From the NCBI GenBank assembly GCA_016191425.1, contig JACPOR010000007.1, positions 1-64,000 of the forward strand: a stretch of 64,000 nt of DNA, given 5' to 3'. The notes beneath the pieces were generated by a model. The model ran no database searches, was not told the origin of the DNA, and worked only from the letters and a program-made list of their open reading frames with translations. The DNA is from Chloroflexota bacterium (GTDB lineage: Bacteria > Chloroflexota > Limnocylindria > Limnocylindrales > CSP1-4). Numbering within the stretch: position 1 is the first letter of the stretch; each line of letters opens with the position of its first letter. Positions 11,437 through 55,201 of the stretch are shown here, piece by piece. A program made the translations under genes and the position numbers.

Positions 11437-11648
11437 GGCACGTCGCCGCGGCGTGACGACCGGAATCGGACCCTCGGCGTTCCCTTCCTCGAGGTCACTC
11501 GACTGCGCATGGCTCGGGCGCGAGCCTTCCCGTAGTAGCCGAATCAGACAGTCACAGGGCCACGAACGATGAGATCAGGACACAGACGGCCTGTCGGACC
11601 GTACCTACGATGGGTCCCGTCGACTCAACGCGTCGGGAGAGAGGGACG

Positions 11649-12710
11649 ATGACGGGACTGGACACCGGCAATACCGGATTCATGCTGCTGGCCAGCAGCC
11701 TGGTCATGCTCATGACGCCGGGGCTCGCATTCTTCTACGGCGGACTCGTGGGCCGGAAGAACGTCCTCGCGATCATGATGCAGAGCTTCGTGTCCATGGG
11801 CTGGACGACCATCTTGTGGGTCGCCTTTGGATTCTCGCTGAGCTTCTCCGGCGGCAAGGGCGCGATCATCGGAAACCTGGACATGGCGTTCCTCCGGGGC
11901 ATCACGCTGTCAACGCCGTCGCCGAACGAAACGATTCCGATGATCGTGTTCGTCGCCTATCAGATGATGTTCGCGGTCATCACGCCGGCCTTGATCACCG
12001 GGGCCTTCACGAACAGGGTGACGTTCCGCGCCTACATGCTCTTCCTCACCGGCTGGCTGGTTCTGGTTTACTTTCCGTTCGTCCACATGATCTGGGGCGG
12101 TGGGTGGCTGGCGCAGCTGGGCGTTCTCGATTTCGCGGGCGGCATCGTCGTGCACGTGATTGCCGGCATGGCCGCCCTTGCCTCCGTGTTGTTCGTCGGG
12201 CGGCGACGGACACCGGAGGCCGGGCCGCACAGCATCCCGCTGGTGGCTCTCGGCACCGGCCTCCTCTGGTTCGGCTGGTATGGCTTCAACGCCGGAAGTG
12301 AGTTCCGAGTCGACTCGGTGACCGCGATCGCGTTCCTGAACACGGACGTCGCGGCCTCGTTCGCTGCGATCGTCTGGCTGGCACTCGACTGGCGCCTCGC
12401 AAAGCGGCCGAAGTTCCTGGGTCTGCTCACGGGTGCGGTAGCCGGACTCGCCACGATCATCATTCTCCTCGGTGTCTTCGCCACCAAGGCCTGGAACCCC
12501 GCCGGGGCGGACGGTCTGCTCGCCGGAAACCCGTCGTTCTTCTTTGTTGAAGTCGGGGCGGTTGTCTTTGCCTCGGTCTGGTCCATCGGGTTCACCTACG
12601 GCATGCTCTGGCTCATCGACAAGGTCACGCCCGTGCGGGTCACTGCCGAGACGGAAGAGGGCGGCCTCGATCAGGGCCTCCACGGCGAGATCGCCTACGA
12701 GGGCGTGTAG
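11649..12710 (+). CDS. amt: Ammonium transporter lacking an internal block
   Basis: 353-aa Amt/MEP/Rh-family membrane protein. Conserved parts include GLAFFYGGLVGRKN, the pore histidine H169 (equivalent to E. coli AmtB His168) in VVHVIAGMAAL, GWYGFNAGS, and the C-terminal GLDQGLHGEIAYEG that contacts GlnK. GAGGG upstream supports ATG 11649. Between GAVAGLATI and ILLGVFA (residue ~270, near base 12458) about 53 residues of the usual family sequence are absent in frame. They would contain most of two helices and the second pore histidine (GVHG, AmtB His318). As written, conduction is doubtful. Its position beside a ureide locus suits uptake or recycling of ammonia. Confidence 0.88.
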   Translation: MTGLDTGNTGFMLLASSLVMLMTPGLAFFYGGLVGRKNVLAIMMQSFVSMGWTTILWVAFGFSLSFSGGKGAIIGNLDMAFLRGITLSTPSPNETIPMIVFVAYQMMFAVITPALITGAFTNRVTFRAYMLFLTGWLVLVYFPFVHMIWGGGWLAQLGVLDFAGGIVVHVIAGMAALASVLFVGRRRTPEAGPHSIPLVALGTGLLWFGWYGFNAGSEFRVDSVTAIAFLNTDVAASFAAIVWLALDWRLAKRPKFLGLLTGAVAGLATIIILLGVFATKAWNPAGADGLLAGNPSFFFVEVGAVVFASVWSIGFTYGMLWLIDKVTPVRVTAETEEGGLDQGLHGEIAYEGV

Positions 12711-12718
12711 CGCGCCGA

Positions 12719-14290
12719 TCAGGGCGTGGGCAGCCGCCGGAGGCGGAGCGCGAGCGACAGGCTGAGGCAGCGCTCGGGGTCGTCGACGAACGGGCCGATG
12801 ACTTCCTCGATCTTGGCGAGGCGGTTCTTCAGCGTGTTGTAGTGGATGAACAGCTGCCGGGCAGCGAGTGCGCCGTTGCGGGTCGCGAGGAACGTGTCCA
12901 ACGTCTGAACCAGGGCGGTTCCGGTGGCCAGATCGTGGAACTCAAGGGGCCCCAGCACGGACCCGCAGTAGGCCTCGACTTCTGCCTCGGACACGTCGGC
13001 GAGCAGCCGGTCCACACCGAGTTCGGAAAACATCACGAGGTGACCCGGGCCCCGGCTCCACTGACCGATGGCGAGCGCCCGGCGCGCTTCGCCGAAGGAG
13101 AGGTGAATCTGGAGAGGATCCGGGGCAGGTCGGCCGATCCCGACACTGACGACGCCCCTGGGCATGCGCCGGACAGCCTCGGCCAGAAATGCCGTCCCCG
13201 CCTCCCGCAGGCCCGCCCCTCCGCTGCCCGCCGTCGCAACGAGTGCTCCGATCTCGCGGCTCCGCTCCCACGCGATGGCGTTCGGCCCGAGGCTCGCTCG
13301 GGCTGTCTCGGCGAGCCCATGTCGAAGTTCGGTCTCTTCGGGGGTCCCGGCGAGGGCCGAGAAGGGCCGGCCACCGACCGCCTCGACCTCCGCCAGAAGC
13401 ACCGCCCGGGGCGTGGTCAGATCCCAGGCGAACGCCGCAGCCCGCTCCATCAGCACGCTCCGGTCGATGACATGCCCGGTGACGAGTTCTTCGAGACAGA
13501 CGGTCTGAAAACGCCTGTCCGCCTCGGCCACGGCACGCGCCTGAACCTGGCGCAGCGCAGCGATCGTCGCCGCATGCTCGACTGCCTCGAGCTGTTCAGA
13601 TCCCAACCCGGACGCACCGCCGGTCACGAGGACCGCGCCATACCGCTCGGCACCCACCTGGATGGGCTGGACCATCACGTTGCCGTCCAGTTCAACCTCC
13701 GGCGTCGTTCGCCATTGGAGGGCTCCGGTCCCGTCCACGATCCCGACCGGCCGAGAAATCAACTCACTGAGCGCTTCGGCGATCTGGCGCAGACCGCCGC
13801 CGGACAACACGATCGAGGTGAACCGGTCGTGGACGGCCGCTGAGCGCTTGAGTTGGACCGTCTGGGCGGCCAGAATTTCTGACAGGGCCGCATTGATGAT
13901 CTCGTTGAAGGAGGCGTCTGCAGGGAGCTCGATGAGCGCGAAGTTCAGTCGATCCGCAGCCTCGATCATGGCGGCCGGGGTGGCCGACAGGTAGCGGGTC
14001 GGTTTGAGGGCAATCCCCGCGAGGCCTCGCTCTGCCAGTTGGGGAATGAGAGCCGCAAGCGCCGCCGGGTCATCTCGAAGGGGATAGGCAGTGGTCAGGA
14101 GCAGTTCGTCCGGCTTCACCCACTCGAGGATGTCTGGAACCTCCATGACGTTCACCGACCGGACGACGCGATCCAGTCCCGCCGCCCCCCCAACCACCTG
14201 GGCGGCGCGAAGAATCGGCAGCCGAACGATGTCGGTGAGCCGAATCGCGTCGCTGACCCGCGCCTCGGAGAATGGAGTCTGGACCGGCAC
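12719..14290 (-). CDS. pucR: PucR-family transcriptional regulator
   Basis: 523 aa. The N-terminal PucR domain (VVRSVNVMEVPDILEWVKPDELLLTT, about 42-67) is followed by a GAF/GGDEF-like middle. The C-terminal PucR HTH contains LFIHYNTLKNRLAKIEEVIG followed by a long recognition helix. PucR proteins activate purine and ureide catabolism. It is divergent from the allH operon across about 50 bases and convergent with amt, so it is the likely local regulator of both. The start is a GTG sitting at the predicted transcription start, hence probably leaderless. Confidence 0.9.
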   Translation of the reverse strand: MPVQTPFSEARVSDAIRLTDIVRLPILRAAQVVGGAAGLDRVVRSVNVMEVPDILEWVKPDELLLTTAYPLRDDPAALAALIPQLAERGLAGIALKPTRYLSATPAAMIEAADRLNFALIELPADASFNEIINAALSEILAAQTVQLKRSAAVHDRFTSIVLSGGGLRQIAEALSELISRPVGIVDGTGALQWRTTPEVELDGNVMVQPIQVGAERYGAVLVTGGASGLGSEQLEAVEHAATIAALRQVQARAVAEADRRFQTVCLEELVTGHVIDRSVLMERAAAFAWDLTTPRAVLLAEVEAVGGRPFSALAGTPEETELRHGLAETARASLGPNAIAWERSREIGALVATAGSGGAGLREAGTAFLAEAVRRMPRGVVSVGIGRPAPDPLQIHLSFGEARRALAIGQWSRGPGHLVMFSELGVDRLLADVSEAEVEAYCGSVLGPLEFHDLATGTALVQTLDTFLATRNGALAARQLFIHYNTLKNRLAKIEEVIGPFVDDPERCLSLSLALRLRRLPTP

Positions 14291-14341: not shown

Positions 14342-15436
14342 GTGACGGTAGGAGAACCGCTGCCTACGCTTCAGGCGATGCACCTGACGTCGACACGGCC
14401 CGGCCAGCTTGACGCCACGCTCGTCAGCGACGCCATTCGGCCGCACCTCGAACGCGGTCGGAGCGGCGTCGTCCACAGCGTCTTCCGGGCGGTCGTTAAC
14501 CTCGAGACCCGGGACGGCTTGATCACGATCGGGGGCCCGTCAGTCGAGCCGCTCCCCCACGGGCTGCGCACCCGCGGGCCGCTCGACTTCCAGACCATGG
14601 GGCTGCGACCCGGCCAGCACGTGATCCTGGATCGGCGGTGGATCCGAATCCCCGCGTGCGACATCGACATTGACCTATCCCTGGCCGCCAACTGGTCACC
14701 GAGGCTGCCCGCAAACGATCCCGAACTGGCCCGGGCCAGGTGGCGCATTCGCGCCCGGGACGTACGGAGCCTCGTGGCCGCCGCAGTCCGAGCGCGTCCC
14801 GGATCGAGAGACGGCCTCGGCGACCTGATCGACACCGACGGACACAGCCCGTTGCGACCGGTGGCTCGTCTCGCGGCGCCGCGCCTCGAACGCCTCGCCA
14901 GCGCCGTCCGCGACGCCGATCCGTCAGCGGCCGGCACGGCGGCCGAGTCGCTGGTTGGGCTGGGACCGGGCCTGACTCCATCGGGAGACGACGCGCTCAT
15001 CGGAATGGCCGCGGCGCTCACCGCGCTGGCCGCGCCCGGGACCCTCGACGCCACGTTCCTCCGTCGCGCCGTGGAAACGGCCCCGAACCGGACGACAGCC
15101 GTGAGCACGACGTTCCTCCGCCACGCTGCGGCCGGCGAATTCTGCGGCGGTCTGCATGGTCTCATGGCCGGGCTCACCGGGCCGGATCCGTCCGAAGTGC
15201 GCTCGGCGATTGAGCGCTCCGTGGCCTTCGGCGCAACGTCGGGTGCGGACACGCTGGTGGGAGTCCTCATGGGGCTCGATGCCATGGTGGCGAGCGTTCT
15301 CGATGCCCCCGCCGTATCCGTTGTCGGTGCCCTCGCCGCGTCCGCTCCGGGCCAGGCGAGGACCGCTCCGGGCCAGGCGAGGACCGCTCCGGGCCAGGCG
15401 AGGACCGCTCCGGGCCAGGCGAGGACCGCGGCGTGA
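14342..15436 (+). CDS. allH: Oxamate carbamoyltransferase subunit AllH (DUF2877)
   Basis: 364-aa DUF2877 protein with the family core ESLVGLGPGLTPSGDDALIG around residues 200-219. In E. coli the homologous AllH (YlbF) works with AllF and AllG as the oxamate carbamoyltransferase of anaerobic allantoin use, converting oxalurate and phosphate to oxamate and carbamoyl phosphate. The GTG start has GGAG eight bases upstream. The C-terminus ends in four APGQART-like repeats encoded by 21-bp tandem copies, unlikely to belong to the fold. It is first in the operon, divergent from pucR. Confidence 0.82.
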   Translation: MTVGEPLPTLQAMHLTSTRPGQLDATLVSDAIRPHLERGRSGVVHSVFRAVVNLETRDGLITIGGPSVEPLPHGLRTRGPLDFQTMGLRPGQHVILDRRWIRIPACDIDIDLSLAANWSPRLPANDPELARARWRIRARDVRSLVAAAVRARPGSRDGLGDLIDTDGHSPLRPVARLAAPRLERLASAVRDADPSAAGTAAESLVGLGPGLTPSGDDALIGMAAALTALAAPGTLDATFLRRAVETAPNRTTAVSTTFLRHAAAGEFCGGLHGLMAGLTGPDPSEVRSAIERSVAFGATSGADTLVGVLMGLDAMVASVLDAPAVSVVGALAASAPGQARTAPGQARTAPGQARTAPGQARTAA

Positions 15437-15497
15437 CCGTCCAGGCGAGGACCGCTCCGGACCGGGCGAGGACCGCGGCGTGATCGTCCAGGCGAGA
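15344..15497. repeat. 21-bp tandem repeat and duplicated allH/allF junction
   Basis: Four perfect 21-bp copies (15344-15427) encode the AllH C-terminal tail. They run into a 47-bp duplication: the stretch with GCGAGGACCGCGGCGTGA occurs once at the allH stop and again at the allF start (GTG at 15433 and at 15480). Only the second GTG is in the allF frame. The repeat thus spans the last AllH codons, the stop and the ribosome-binding region of allF. Confidence 0.9.
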
Positions 15498-17135
15498 GTG
15501 TTCCGGAACAGCTATCGAGACTCCGTTGAACTCATGCGGATCGCGGCCGAGATCGAAGCGCTGGGCGGCATCACTCGAGCGGGTCTGGTGATGGCCACAC
15601 CGGCCAACCGTGAGGTCCTCCAGGAAGCGGGGCTGCTCGCCGAGGCTGCGCTCGACGCGGGCCCGAATGACCTGGTCGTGGCCGTGGCCGCCGACGGCGA
15701 GGCGGCAGCGGAGATTGCGCTCGGTCGCGCCGCGGAGCGCTTGTCGGGCGCCGATGGGGGCACGACCGCGGACGCCGTCAGGACCTCGTGGCGCACCATC
15801 GCCGAGGGCATCGCCGATCTCGGTGGCGCCGACGTCGCGCTCATTTCCACGCCGGGCACGTACGCGACGGCCGAGGCCCTCAAGGCGCTCAAACGCGGCA
15901 TCAACGTGTTCCTGTTCAGCGATAACGTCCCGATCGAGGACGAGATCGAGCTCAAGAACCTGGCCGTGGCCCGTGACTTGCTCCTCATGGGGCCGGATTG
16001 CGGCACGGCGATCCTCGATGGCGTGCCGCTTGGATTCGCCAACGCTGTTCGGCGCGGTGGCATTGGCCTGATCGGCGCATCCGGAACGGGTCTCCAACAG
16101 GTCAGCTGTCTCATCGATCGGGCCGGGGCGGGCATTTCGCAGGCGATCGGCGTCGGAGGGCGCGATCTCGATGACCGAGTCGGTGGAACGATGATGCTGG
16201 CCGCGCTTCGACGTCTGGACGCAGACCCCGGCACGCGCGTGATCGTCCTCATCTCAAAGCCTCCGGGCGCCGCGGTGGCCAGGCTCGTGGTGGAGATGGC
16301 CGGCTCGCTGACGACACCCGTCGTCGTCAACTTTCTGGGTGGAGATCCGGCTGTGGTCCGCGAGTTCGGCCTGATCCCCGCGCGCACCTTCGAGGCCGCC
16401 GCGAATGCGGCCGCGGCGCTCTCGCTGGGCGAACCCATCCCGGACGAGACGGACGCCGACGCGAAGGCGGACGCTACTGCCGACGCGAAGGCGGACGTTA
16501 CAGCCGACGCGGGGCCGCACGCGGCGTCGGCTGAGGCAATTGCCCGCCTGCAACCAGGTCAATGGCGGATCCGGGGCCTGTTCGCCGGCGGCTCCCTTTC
16601 CGGCGAGGCCAAACTCATGCTGGGCTGGGCGCTCGGTGCGGAAGCGGCCAGGACTCATGAAATCCTCGACCTGGGCGACGACGAGTACACCGTGGGACGG
16701 CCCCACCCGATGATCGATCCGAGGCTGCGGAATGAGCACATCGCGGCCGCTGCCGACGATCCTTCGACCGCCGTGATCCTCCTCGACGTCGTCCTCGGCT
16801 ATGGGGCAAACGCCGATCCCGCCGGTGCCCTCGTGCCGGCCATCCGCGACGCCCGGCAACGGGCCACCCAGGCCGGTCGACACCTTGTGGTCGTGGCGTC
16901 CGTGTGCGGGACGGACGCCGATCTCCAGGGCCGATCGTCACAGGAGGCGATCCTGGCCGCCGCCGGCGTCATCCTCGCGCGGAGCAATGCCCAGGCGGCG
17001 GGCATCGCGGCCGCGATCGCCGCGGCGACGGGCCACGCCGGCAGTGGACGGGCAATCGGCGGCGCGTCGGACGGCGCAGGTTCGGCTGGCACCACCGCGA
17101 CGTCCATCGGCACCGGTCCGGGCGCGACCCTGTGA
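15480..17135 (+). CDS. allF: Oxamate carbamoyltransferase subunit AllF (FdrA-like)
   Basis: 551 aa, similar to E. coli FdrA/AllF and to succinyl-CoA synthetase alpha subunits. Motifs include the start VFRNSYRDSVELM, MGPDCGTAILDG, the glycine-rich GLIGASGTGLQQVS and IGVGGRDLDDRVGG, then a C-terminal ligase-like domain with ILLDVVLGYGANADPAGAL. A low-complexity linker near residues 325-350 repeats ADAKAD. The GTG start is preceded by GAGG eight bases upstream inside a duplicated junction. The stop overlaps the allG start (GTGA). It should bind phosphate or ligand in the AllFGH complex. Confidence 0.85.
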   Translation: MIVQARVFRNSYRDSVELMRIAAEIEALGGITRAGLVMATPANREVLQEAGLLAEAALDAGPNDLVVAVAADGEAAAEIALGRAAERLSGADGGTTADAVRTSWRTIAEGIADLGGADVALISTPGTYATAEALKALKRGINVFLFSDNVPIEDEIELKNLAVARDLLLMGPDCGTAILDGVPLGFANAVRRGGIGLIGASGTGLQQVSCLIDRAGAGISQAIGVGGRDLDDRVGGTMMLAALRRLDADPGTRVIVLISKPPGAAVARLVVEMAGSLTTPVVVNFLGGDPAVVREFGLIPARTFEAAANAAAALSLGEPIPDETDADAKADATADAKADVTADAGPHAASAEAIARLQPGQWRIRGLFAGGSLSGEAKLMLGWALGAEAARTHEILDLGDDEYTVGRPHPMIDPRLRNEHIAAAADDPSTAVILLDVVLGYGANADPAGALVPAIRDARQRATQAGRHLVVVASVCGTDADLQGRSSQEAILAAAGVILARSNAQAAGIAAAIAAATGHAGSGRAIGGASDGAGSAGTTATSIGTGPGATL

Positions 17136-18622
17136 CCGATCCCAAGCCGATGACATCCCGGCTGTTCCCCCAGGAGGTCCGCGCGATCAACGTCGGCCTC
17201 GCGATGTTCGCGGAGGCTCCCGCCGCACACGGCGCGACCGTGGCCACGCTCGACTGGCGTCCGCCGGCGGAGGGAGATCGAGACATCGGCCTCTTGCTCG
17301 CACGCCTCGAGGACGATCCTGCCGACCCCGTTGGAAGGCAGGTAGCCGACGCGAACGCGGCGGCCCTGAGCCGGCTCCTGGGAGCGCAGCCACTGCTTGT
17401 CGACGTTCGGCCGGCCAGTGAGGCCATCGGCCTGGTGGGCAGGCAGCTCCTGCACTCCGGGCCGCCGATCCCATGGAACCGCATGTGCGGTCCGGTTCGT
17501 GGCGCAATCGTGGGTGCAATCCTGTTTGAAGGCTGGACATCGACGGCCGCGCAGGCGGAAGAGCTCGCGGAGTCCGGCGCCATCGCATTCGCGCCGTGCC
17601 ATCACCACGCGACGGTGGGCCCGATGGCCGGTGTCGTGAGCCCGTCCATGCCGGTCGTGGTGGTCGAGAATGCCCCCGGCGGAACGCGAGCCCACGCGAC
17701 CCTCAACGAGGGCCTCGGAAAGGTCCTTCGGTTCGGCGCGTATGACGCGTCGGTGCTGGAGCGGCTGCGTTGGTTCCGGGACGTCCTCGGTCCGACCCTT
17801 TCGGCGACGCTCCAGGCCTCGGGTCCGATCGACCTGCGCAGCCTGACCGGTCAGGCATTGCAGATGGGCGACGAAGGCCACAACCGGAATATCGCCTCGA
17901 CCTCGTTGTTCGTCCGCATGCTCGCGCCCTGGATCGTTCGAACAACCGAGGCGACCGCCGCCGCGAGCGTGCTCGATTTTCTTCGTGGCAACGACCACTT
18001 CTTCCTGAACCTGTCCATGGCCGCCTGCAAGTCCGCCCTGGATGCGGCACATGGGATTCCCGGTTCGTCGGTCGTCACCGCCATGACCCGCAACGGTGTG
18101 GACTTCGGGATCCGCCTGTCGGGCACCGGGGACCGGTGGTTCACCTCACCGGTGGGTGTCCCGGATGGCCTGTACTTCCCGGGCTATGGACCAGAGGATG
18201 CCAACCCCGACCTCGGGGACAGTGCGATCACCGAGACCTTCGGAATCGGAGGTTTCGCGATGGCGGCCGCCCCGGCGATCGTCAGGTTCGTCGGCGGCAC
18301 GGCCGCCGATGCACTCGAGTTCACCCGACTCATGGGCCGGATCACCCTTGGACGCAATCCCGCCTATGCGCTGCCTTCATTGGCGTTCGCCGGAACGCCG
18401 ACCGGGATCGACGCGCGACGGGTGGTGGATTCGGGCATCGCCCCGGTCATCAACACCGGGATCGCGCATCGCCAGGCGGGCATCGGCCAGATCGGGGCCG
18501 GGATCGCCAGGGCGCCGCTCGGCTGTTTCAGCGAGGGGATTCGGGAGCTGGCCGCGAGCGTTGGGCTCGCCGCGGGCGGGACAGTGAACGGCCACACCGC
18601 GACCGCCAGGTCCGACCGCTGA
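17132..18622 (+). CDS. allG: Oxamate carbamoyltransferase subunit AllG (DUF1116, YlbE-like)
   Basis: 496-aa DUF1116 protein homologous to E. coli YlbE/AllG. Conserved stretches are INVGLAMFAEA near the N-terminus, PWNRMCGPVRGAIVGA, FAPCHHHATVGPMAG (a Cys/His cluster that may form part of the active site) and GDEGHNRNIASTSLF. The GTG start overlaps the allF stop by four bases and its stop overlaps the carbamate kinase start (TGATG), so the genes are tightly coupled. It is probably the catalytic or structural core of the carbamoyltransferase with AllF and AllH. Confidence 0.85.
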   Translation: MTDPKPMTSRLFPQEVRAINVGLAMFAEAPAAHGATVATLDWRPPAEGDRDIGLLLARLEDDPADPVGRQVADANAAALSRLLGAQPLLVDVRPASEAIGLVGRQLLHSGPPIPWNRMCGPVRGAIVGAILFEGWTSTAAQAEELAESGAIAFAPCHHHATVGPMAGVVSPSMPVVVVENAPGGTRAHATLNEGLGKVLRFGAYDASVLERLRWFRDVLGPTLSATLQASGPIDLRSLTGQALQMGDEGHNRNIASTSLFVRMLAPWIVRTTEATAAASVLDFLRGNDHFFLNLSMAACKSALDAAHGIPGSSVVTAMTRNGVDFGIRLSGTGDRWFTSPVGVPDGLYFPGYGPEDANPDLGDSAITETFGIGGFAMAAAPAIVRFVGGTAADALEFTRLMGRITLGRNPAYALPSLAFAGTPTGIDARRVVDSGIAPVINTGIAHRQAGIGQIGAGIARAPLGCFSEGIRELAASVGLAAGGTVNGHTATARSDR

Positions 18623-25864: not shown

Positions 25865-25920
25865 CGGGGCCGTTCAAGTCAATGGGCGTGAACGGGGCCG
25901 TTCAAGTCAATGGGCGTGAA
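25865..25920. repeat. 28-bp tandem duplication at the YHS gene 3' end
   Basis: Two identical 28-bp copies (25865-25892 and 25893-25920) cover the last codons, the stop (25907-25909) and the 3' flank of the minus-strand YHS gene. The flanking gap from the riboswitch to 25864 holds no other recognised element. Confidence 0.9.
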
Positions 25921-26302
25921 CGGGCTCTGGTTCGGCTTCAGCAGCCTCGCAGATTCCCGGTCCGACGGGACCCACGGCCGCGGCGGCTCGCTCCGCGTCC
26001 AGCTGCGCCTTGACCTCCGGGTAGGCGTCGCTCAGGCAGCATGAGCAGCTCTCGTACCAGCGCCGCATCCCCTCGTCGATGACCGGACGTTCGACTCCAC
26101 CCGCTACGACGACCGAGACGGCCATGGCCGCCTCGGCGGCCGCGTGGGCAGGATCCTCGAGAAACGCTCGTCGGCAGCCGTCTCGGCAGAAGCCGTACGT
26201 TCGGCCATCGAATTCGATCAGAAGACCGGCGGCCTCGGCTACGTCGACATCGACGGTCATCCCGCAGATTGGATCAATGATCTGGGCTGGTCGATCAGTC
26301 AC
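25907..26302 (-). CDS. YHS-domain metal-binding protein
   Basis: 131 aa from a GTG with AGGGAG eight bases upstream. It has the YHS/TRASH-type signature DPICGMTVDVDVAEAAG, then FDGRTYGFCRDGCRRAFLEDP, with cysteines suited to bind a soft metal. Such domains occur in copper or mercury handling proteins and in ring-hydroxylating systems. The C-terminus carries another CSCC cluster and ends in HAH. No metal ATPase is nearby, so the substrate metal is unknown. Confidence 0.75.
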   Translation of the reverse strand: MTDRPAQIIDPICGMTVDVDVAEAAGLLIEFDGRTYGFCRDGCRRAFLEDPAHAAAEAAMAVSVVVAGGVERPVIDEGMRRWYESCSCCLSDAYPEVKAQLDAERAAAAVGPVGPGICEAAEAEPEPVHAH

Positions 26303-43162: not shown

Positions 43163-43235
43163 CGAGAGCGGCGGGGCGTCGAAATCGAAGGAGAGCCGCC
43201 CTGGCACGATCCGGTCCGGTGGGGTCCGTGACTAC

Positions 43236-43322
43236 GGTCGGGCGGCGTCCCGTGCCTGCGGTCGGGCGGCGTCCCGTGCCTACGGTCGGGCGGCGTCCCG
43301 TGCCTACGGTCGGGCGGCGTCC
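43236..43322. repeat. 24-bp tandem repeats at the glyS 3' end
   Basis: Three copies plus a partial of a 24-bp unit (containing GGTCGGGCGGCGTCCCGTGC). It is a multiplication of the last glyS codons, the TAG stop (43304-43306, minus strand) and flank. Each copy contains the same stop in the glyS frame. Confidence 0.9.
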
Positions 43323-46209: not shown

Positions 46210-47114
46210 ATGTCGACCACCGCCCACACGATCGATCTTGACCAGCTGATCGCCGACACCGAGGAGGAGATCCTCCGCCTCGTTGCGGATCGCGATCCTT
46301 CAACGGTTGGCGTCTACGAACAGTGCCGTTATCACCTGGGCCTGGACGGCGCGGCCGGGGTGTCCGGGAAGCGGATGCGCCCCCTGCTCGGCCTGCTGGC
46401 CTACGCCTCCATCACCGGCGACCATCGCGGTGCGTTGCCGGGGGCGGCGGCGGTTGAGCTGGGCCATAACTTCAGCCTGGTCCATGACGACATCGAGGAC
46501 GGCGACAGTGAGCGCCGCCACCGAGCGACGCTCTGGAGCCTGCACGGGATCCCCCAGGCGATCAACACCGGCGACATGCTGTTCAGCCTCAGCCGCGTGG
46601 CCCTGCATCGGTTGACCGACCTCGGCTTCAGCGACCACAAGGTCCTTCGCCTGATGCGTCTCTATGACGAGACGTGCGTCGCGCTGTGCGAGGGCCAGTA
46701 CATCGACATCGCGACAGGTGAAGCCGACGACGTGATGTCGGTCGACCGCTATTTCGACATGATCGGGCGCAAGACGGCCGCGCTCATTGCCGCCTCGATC
46801 GAGGCCGGGGCGCTCCTCGCGACCGACGACGAGGATGTGATCCGCCACTACCGAAACTTCGGCTGGGATCTCGGGCTGGCCTTCCAGCTGAACGATGACC
46901 TGCTGGGCATCTGGGGCGACGAGCGGACGACCGGCAAGGAACCCACGGACGTGGCGCGTCGCAAGAAGAGCGGGTTGGCGCCCATGAGTACACGCGCCAG
47001 CAGGCCCGAGTGCATCGTGACCGGGCGCTGGCCGAGCTTGATGCGGCCGGCGTCGTCCTGCCCGAGGCCCGCCAGCGCCTCGAAGAAATCGTCGTCCGGG
47101 TGATCGCGGCATAA
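46210..47114 (+). pseudogene. Polyprenyl (geranylgeranyl/farnesyl) diphosphate synthase, internally deleted and frameshifted
   Basis: Trans-isoprenyl diphosphate synthase. The first ~254 residues are normal, with the aspartate-rich DDIED (93-97), GKEPTDVARRKKS and the second NDD (228-230). After codon 254 (base 46971) the usual ~45 residues are missing and the reading frame changes. The authentic C-terminus (VGAHEYTRQQAR, then ALAELDAAGV) resumes in a different frame and ends at TAA 47112-47114. Read without correction, the protein ends at 47103 in a nonsense tail. A deletion or assembly error is likely. Confidence 0.85.
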
Positions 47115-47184
47115 CCAACGTGTGATCAGCGCGTGACCAACGGGTGATCGCGGCATAACCAACGTGTGATCAGCGCGTGACCAA
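47097..47184. repeat. 44-bp tandem duplication at the polyprenyl synthase 3' end
   Basis: Two copies of a 44-bp unit (47097-47140, 47141-47184), each made of two similar 22-bp halves (GTGATC...ACCAAC). The unit repeats the last codons and the TAA stop of the synthase gene. Confidence 0.9.
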
Positions 47185-47204
47185 CCGCCCGATGCGCCGA
47201 TTCG

Positions 47205-55064: not shown

Positions 55065-55100
55065 CGCCGGAGCGTAGCGGAAGGGCGTCGCCGGCGCCGC

Positions 55101-55201
55101 GATCGACCGTCGTCGCGATCTGCGGCCGGCGCGGCGATCGACCGTCGTCGTGTCTCCGGCCCGTGGGATCGACCATCGTCGCGATCTGCGGCCGGCGCGC
55201 C
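55101..55201. repeat. Degenerate 31-35-bp tandem repeats upstream of tsaE
   Basis: Three copies beginning GATCGACC(G/A)TCGTCG at 55101, 55136 and 55167 fill the gap between the 342-aa gene end and tsaE. They contain ATCTGCGGCCGGCGCG in copies one and three. Confidence 0.85.

Follow-up and report, generated by a model that had tools for sequence, protein, structure and literature searches.

How does an ammonium transporter gene come to lack, in frame, the block that in its relatives carries the second of the twin pore histidines, and what would the shortened product do? These questions are posed by an amt gene in a 64,000-nucleotide stretch of DNA from a Chloroflexota bacterium (the window; Table 1). 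An earlier note, made from the letters of this DNA, had proposed that amt lacks one in-frame block after GAVAGLATI, that this block holds the second pore histidine and that the reading frame survives the junction. Comparison with intact relatives bears out all three points, and the interpretation of the gap is taken up below.

Table 1. Features of amt and of the genes beyond it, in window coordinates.
Feature	Position	Strand	Remarks
Purine-rich Shine-Dalgarno-like stretch preceding ATG 11649 (putative)	11635..11645	+	read directly from the sequence
amt gene with internal in-frame deletion	11649..12710	+	353 aa plus stop; PF00909, 266 bits
amt N-terminal part	11679..12458	+	Pfam profile 2-265; M1-M8, first pore His = H169
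amt deletion junction ATC/ATC	12458..12459	+	52 codons (156 bases) of relatives absent
amt C-terminal part	12462..12698	+	profile 320-399; end of M10, M11, C-terminal region
PucR-type regulator of purine catabolism, convergent to amt	12719..14290	-	PF07905, PF13556, PF17853
AllH-like oxamate carbamoyltransferase subunit	14342..15436	+	PF11392
ORF with CoA-binding and CoA-ligase domains	15156..17135	+	PF00549, PF02629
AllG-like oxamate carbamoyltransferase subunit	16904..18622	+	PF06545

An amt gene with an internal in-frame gap

The coding span of amt (11649–12707 on the forward strand, followed by the stop) lies within an ORF that extends from 11610 to 12710; we set the start at ATG 11649 because the N-termini of the orthologs agree with it. 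E. coli AmtB and A. fulgidus Amt-1, members of the Amt/Mep/Rh family (PF00909), are the best PDB matches to the window Amt by sequence as well as by model. PF00909 itself matches with 266.1 bits against a cut-off of 23.2, in two stretches that the Pfam scan of the genome assembly (G000) places back to back (profile 2–265 and 320–399). The NCBI model for amt, TIGR00836, also matches in two stretches and scores 313 bits, below its cut-off of 343.3.

At the junction (12458|12459), GAVAGLATI is followed directly by IILLGVFATKAWN, and the gap sits between ATC (12456–12458) and ATC (12459–12461). Comparison with the Amts of close genomes, which the earlier note had proposed, was carried out by codon alignment with five intact orthologs, three from the same genus (G003, G004, and G006) and two from the same family (G022 and G034). 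It returned a single gap, which spans exactly 52 codons or 156 bases; the absent residues read TPAAGYVSP...DDALDVWGVHGVGG..G in relatives. The five orthologs are 67–68% identical to the window Amt over the aligned gene and agree with it at both ends, but all of them have the 52-residue block. One more codon is absent from the window gene elsewhere, in the loop ahead of the third helix. The size originally proposed, about 53 residues or 159 bases, holds against E. coli AmtB, for which pairwise alignment gives about 53 absent residues (roughly 273–325 in chain numbering), whereas 52 codons and 156 bases apply to the close relatives. A frameshift or misread frame was ruled out as the cause of the gap, as amt is a single open frame, and so was an intron or insertion element at the junction, where the flanks abut with nothing between them.

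Like AmtB and Amt-1, the window Amt keeps the first pore histidine (AmtB His168, here H169), the phenylalanine gate positions, and the C-terminal region. The gate residues F108 and F213 occupy invariant columns of an 86-row alignment, and their assignment rests on the alignment to AmtB and on the F107/F215 numbering of PMC3647058. Unlike AmtB and Amt-1, the window Amt has no M9, only the end of M10, and no second twin histidine (AmtB His318), whose alignment column is gone. It does not have the family's eleven transmembrane helices: its predicted model is without M9 and a separate M10, whereas the model of an intact ortholog, likewise a prediction rather than a solved structure, has both.

Rarity of the gap and constraint on the retained protein

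The alignment of 86 Amts comprises 80 loci (among the matches listed in a contig scan), the five orthologs, and the window gene; the L040 and G004 Amts are the same gene and lie at zero distance in the tree. The block is 52 residues long in 85 of these proteins and 0 in the window Amt. The first pore histidine is present in 86/86, and the second in all 85 that have the column. A Pfam scan of the class found an Amt match in 103 of 177 genomes, and among these only the window gene has abutting flanks with profile positions 266–319 absent; an unbroken match that starts at profile position 5 or lower and reaches 392 or higher was counted, by eye from the listing, at 97 other class loci. In the phylum, 297 of 400 genomes have an Amt match among the matches listed, a count that is uninformative on weaker matches. 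A 42-residue peptide spanning the junction finds an end-to-end match only in G000 among the 400 genomes, and its ten other matches all start at residue 11 or later. Close orthologs (E ≤ 1e-100) occur in nine other genomes among 107 of the family, five of which were codon-aligned; the match in G122 is interrupted by a contig end.

We found no clade that shares the deletion, be it among the close orthologs of the 107 family genomes, in the Pfam scan of the 177 class genomes, among the 80 contig-scan loci drawn from the matches listed, or, as a junction-spanning match, elsewhere in the 400 phylum genomes. The earlier note had judged that a transporter of this kind would be very unusual, and the occurrence of the gap in 1 of 86 aligned Amts and 1 of 103 Amt-bearing class genomes agrees with that judgment. 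Titles and abstract openings searched in the open-licence literature mention no natural Amt without these helices, which is a weak negative.

Constraint on the retained part of the protein is normal. Of 146 near-invariant positions that it retains, the window Amt is changed at one; the 85 other Amts have a median of 1 as well, and 47 of them have at most one change. Its end branch (0.18) ranks 24th of 86, and its sister is the Amt of G034 (SH-aLRT 96). Pairwise dN/dS between the window gene and its orthologs is about 0.14–0.18 on the N side of the junction and 0.16–0.31 on the C side, both inside the spread of values between orthologs (the set omits the C-side value against G022, for which dS was not computable). 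Against G034, the ratio terms are 0.115/0.643 on the N side and 0.272/0.891 on the C side. Outside the gap, the ORF is free of stops and frameshifts, and neither the dN/dS values nor the conserved positions point to relaxed constraint. A deletion that happened recently would not show in such measures; low dN/dS and intact conserved positions are compatible with a young allele. The deletion is either young, tolerated, or not real, and the constraint tests fit all three.

Predicted loss of helices and origin of the gap

Amt proteins have eleven helices, with the N-terminus outside and the C-terminus inside, according to PMC10433425. The predicted model of the intact ortholog L040 places M8 at residues 254–268, M9 at 277–300, M10 at 305–327, and M11 at 345–376; the block corresponds to residues 269–320, with the second pore histidine at 313. 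Judged on this model, the loss comprises all of M9 and 16 of the 23 residues of M10, and not the two half-helices that had been suggested. In the predicted model of the window Amt, the seven remaining M10 residues are fused to M8 as one helix (256–277). This model is weaker than that of the intact ortholog in pLDDT (79.0 versus 90.9) and pTM (0.81 versus 0.90) and in its match to A. fulgidus Amt-1 (2b2f), with a Z score of 38.2, an rmsd of 2.3, and 336 aligned residues versus 61.6, 1.4, and 388. The Amt fold is retained in the predicted model, which is not independent evidence because the predictor was fed intact relatives. Since one out-to-in and one in-to-out helix are lost together, the nine remaining helices could keep their orientation, which would leave the C-terminus in the cytoplasm.

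Is the gap present in the organism, or did it arise during assembly? The genome may have the full gene, with 156 bases skipped in the contig because of a chimeric read, a join made in scaffolding, or the assembler's choice of a minority strain. G000 comprises 2.38 Mb in 56 contigs, is 92.26% complete, and is most likely a metagenome bin. The restriction of the gap to one Amt-bearing genome of the class, the confinement of the junction-spanning match to G000 within the phylum, and the lack of relaxed constraint in the rest of the protein all agree with an artefact, as do frameshift-broken amt copies in other draft genomes of the family, which may be sequence errors. The breakpoints argue against it. 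The longest word common to their surroundings is 7–10 nt in the five relatives, with 0–1 nt of microhomology on either side of the break, when the relatives' bases stand in for those that this species lost. Given such short shared words, and residues at the block ends that are nearly invariant, the breakpoints are very unlikely to share a repeat of at least 21 bases, long enough to mislead a k-mer assembler. Repeat collapse thus appears a very unlikely origin of the gap; the remaining candidates are a true deletion, a chimeric read, a mixture of strains, and an error in scaffolding. The same 0–1 nt of microhomology, judged on the five relatives, leaves slippage between direct repeats unsupported. 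The junction also lies 12 kb inside a 67.5-kb contig, with no N between 11000 and 13400, and the region does not seem generally damaged: of ten neighboring ORFs scanned, nine have near whole-profile Pfam domains with no comparable gap, and one has no match. We regard an assembly artefact as a serious contender that is nonetheless rather unlikely, and we put a real deletion ahead of it.

A second Amt lies on contig C36 of G000, matches the profile in full (1–399), and is 46% identical to the window Amt over the N-terminal part. The missing block was sought elsewhere in G000 and found only inside the C36 Amt, apart from a chance match at E 0.9, which rules out its relocation within the genome. 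In genus g3, four loci (L138, L139, L140, and L141, in G098, G096, G090, and G097) contain an amt copy split by frameshifts that adjoins an intact one; the copy in G097 has, in addition, an in-frame gap of about 33 profile positions, close to a contig end. These second copies resemble the window gene in being degraded while an intact Amt persists in the genome, but they are frameshifted, adjoin the intact copy, and break at another position. At L142 (G023:C220:5560-6746), amt has a frameshift near profile positions 272–275, close to where the block begins, and the class Pfam scan lists no intact copy in G023. The breaks in g3 and G023 may themselves be sequence errors.

In our best reading, a deletion allele ranks first, an artefact second, and a working nine-helix derivative third. 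On the first of these, one of two amt paralogs would recently have lost 156 bases in frame through a genuine deletion, which took away M9 and most of M10 and fused M8, at its outer end, to the final turns of M10. The cell may well produce the protein and insert it in the membrane, where, with the second half of the pore gone, it would most likely not conduct ammonium. The intact C36 Amt could cover the function, so that the allele would be tolerated while becoming a pseudogene. The existence of the shortened DNA molecule, the production of the protein, and its failure to conduct are points that we infer. For the deletion reading speak the exact 52-codon gap, the confinement of the block to the C36 paralog, the full length of that Amt, the weaker predicted model, and the degraded copies found beside intact ones in the family. 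Against it, the gap rests on a single assembly of the species, and a random deletion stays in frame with a one-in-three chance. In addition, both ends fall near outer helix ends, a tidier arrangement than random decay would require, the rest of the gene lacks marks of decay, and the model keeps the Amt fold. On balance, we give even odds to a recent deletion allele whose product no longer conducts ammonium.

Genomic context and possible function

Absence of the second histidine had been singled out by the earlier note. The residue is indeed missing, but its loss is not the main damage. According to PMC3647058, AmtB H318A still supports ammonium-dependent growth and does not support methylammonium uptake. 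Judged by this variant, the protein should survive the loss of the histidine by itself. The laboratory variants AmtB H318A and Mep2 H348A resemble the window Amt in missing one of the two pore histidines; unlike it, they are single substitutions that keep all helices, and they still support growth on ammonium. Loss of a pore-lining helix together with its neighbor, on the other hand, very probably kills the ammonium channel.

Beyond amt lie a PucR-type regulator and genes that, as far as their family names can tell, form an allantoin/oxamate catabolic cluster. They include an isochorismatase domain and the ORF with CoA-binding and CoA-ligase domains, which we take to be FdrA/AllF-like. The ortholog in G034 is also within a few kilobases of allantoin/oxamate-type genes; such neighbors were not found in seven other orthologous stretches (8 to 16 kb, some ending at contig ends). 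A tandem array with units of 21 and 47 bases (15342–15496) lies at the end of the AllH-like ORF, overlaps the next ORF, and encodes repeated APGQART. Further tandem repeats with units of 24–44 bases, several of them near-perfect, occur at 25865–25924, 43212–43322, 47097–47185, and 55090–55199.

The C-terminal GlnK contact had been described as intact. The C-terminal region is kept, but it has no visible partner: a P-II gene (GlnB/GlnK, PF00543) was found in 0 of the 15 genomes of the genus, G000 included, these assemblies being incomplete, and the same search was positive in 13 of 14 control genomes. An intact contact therefore carries no weight here. An Amt match is present in 13 of the 15 genomes, all without detectable P-II, and having an Amt but no P-II may be the usual state in this lineage.

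Could the shortened protein nevertheless be used? Loss of M9 and M10 might have been selected, yielding a working nine-helix derivative that acts as a sensor, as a regulatory subunit in mixed trimers with the C36 Amt, or as an unselective pore. Frame and topology are kept, as are nearly all conserved residues outside the block; purifying selection has acted across the branch as a whole, and the gene adjoins the PucR regulator and the putative catabolic cluster, with a similar cluster near the G034 ortholog. Two precedents are reported: Ks-Amt5, an Amt domain that turned sensor after losing transport (PMC5764959), and inactive Mep1, which inhibits Mep2 and Mep3 (PMC10433425). The gap is nevertheless known from one genome and shared by no relative examined, the pore is lined by the helix that bears the second histidine, a fused output domain is absent, and model quality drops. 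We consider such a derivative improbable. The gene is probably a copy disrupted not long ago, or a fault of the assembly, and not a new kind of transporter. It is tempting to speculate that a natural Amt without M9, M10, and the second twin histidine is still produced and put to use, either as an ammonium sensor or as a modulating subunit of mixed trimers with the full-length Amt, in an allantoin-degrading lineage without detectable P-II; we hold this to be a long shot.

A dead allele or an artefact is the more likely case, and the locus would then serve as a warning for annotation, as its PF00909 score would lead automatic pipelines to call an ordinary ammonium transporter. Should the deletion instead prove genuine and the shortened protein functional, the Amt fold could do without half of its second repeat, one of the two pore histidines included, a result that would bear on the debate over the twin histidines and on the origin of non-transporting Amt sensors.
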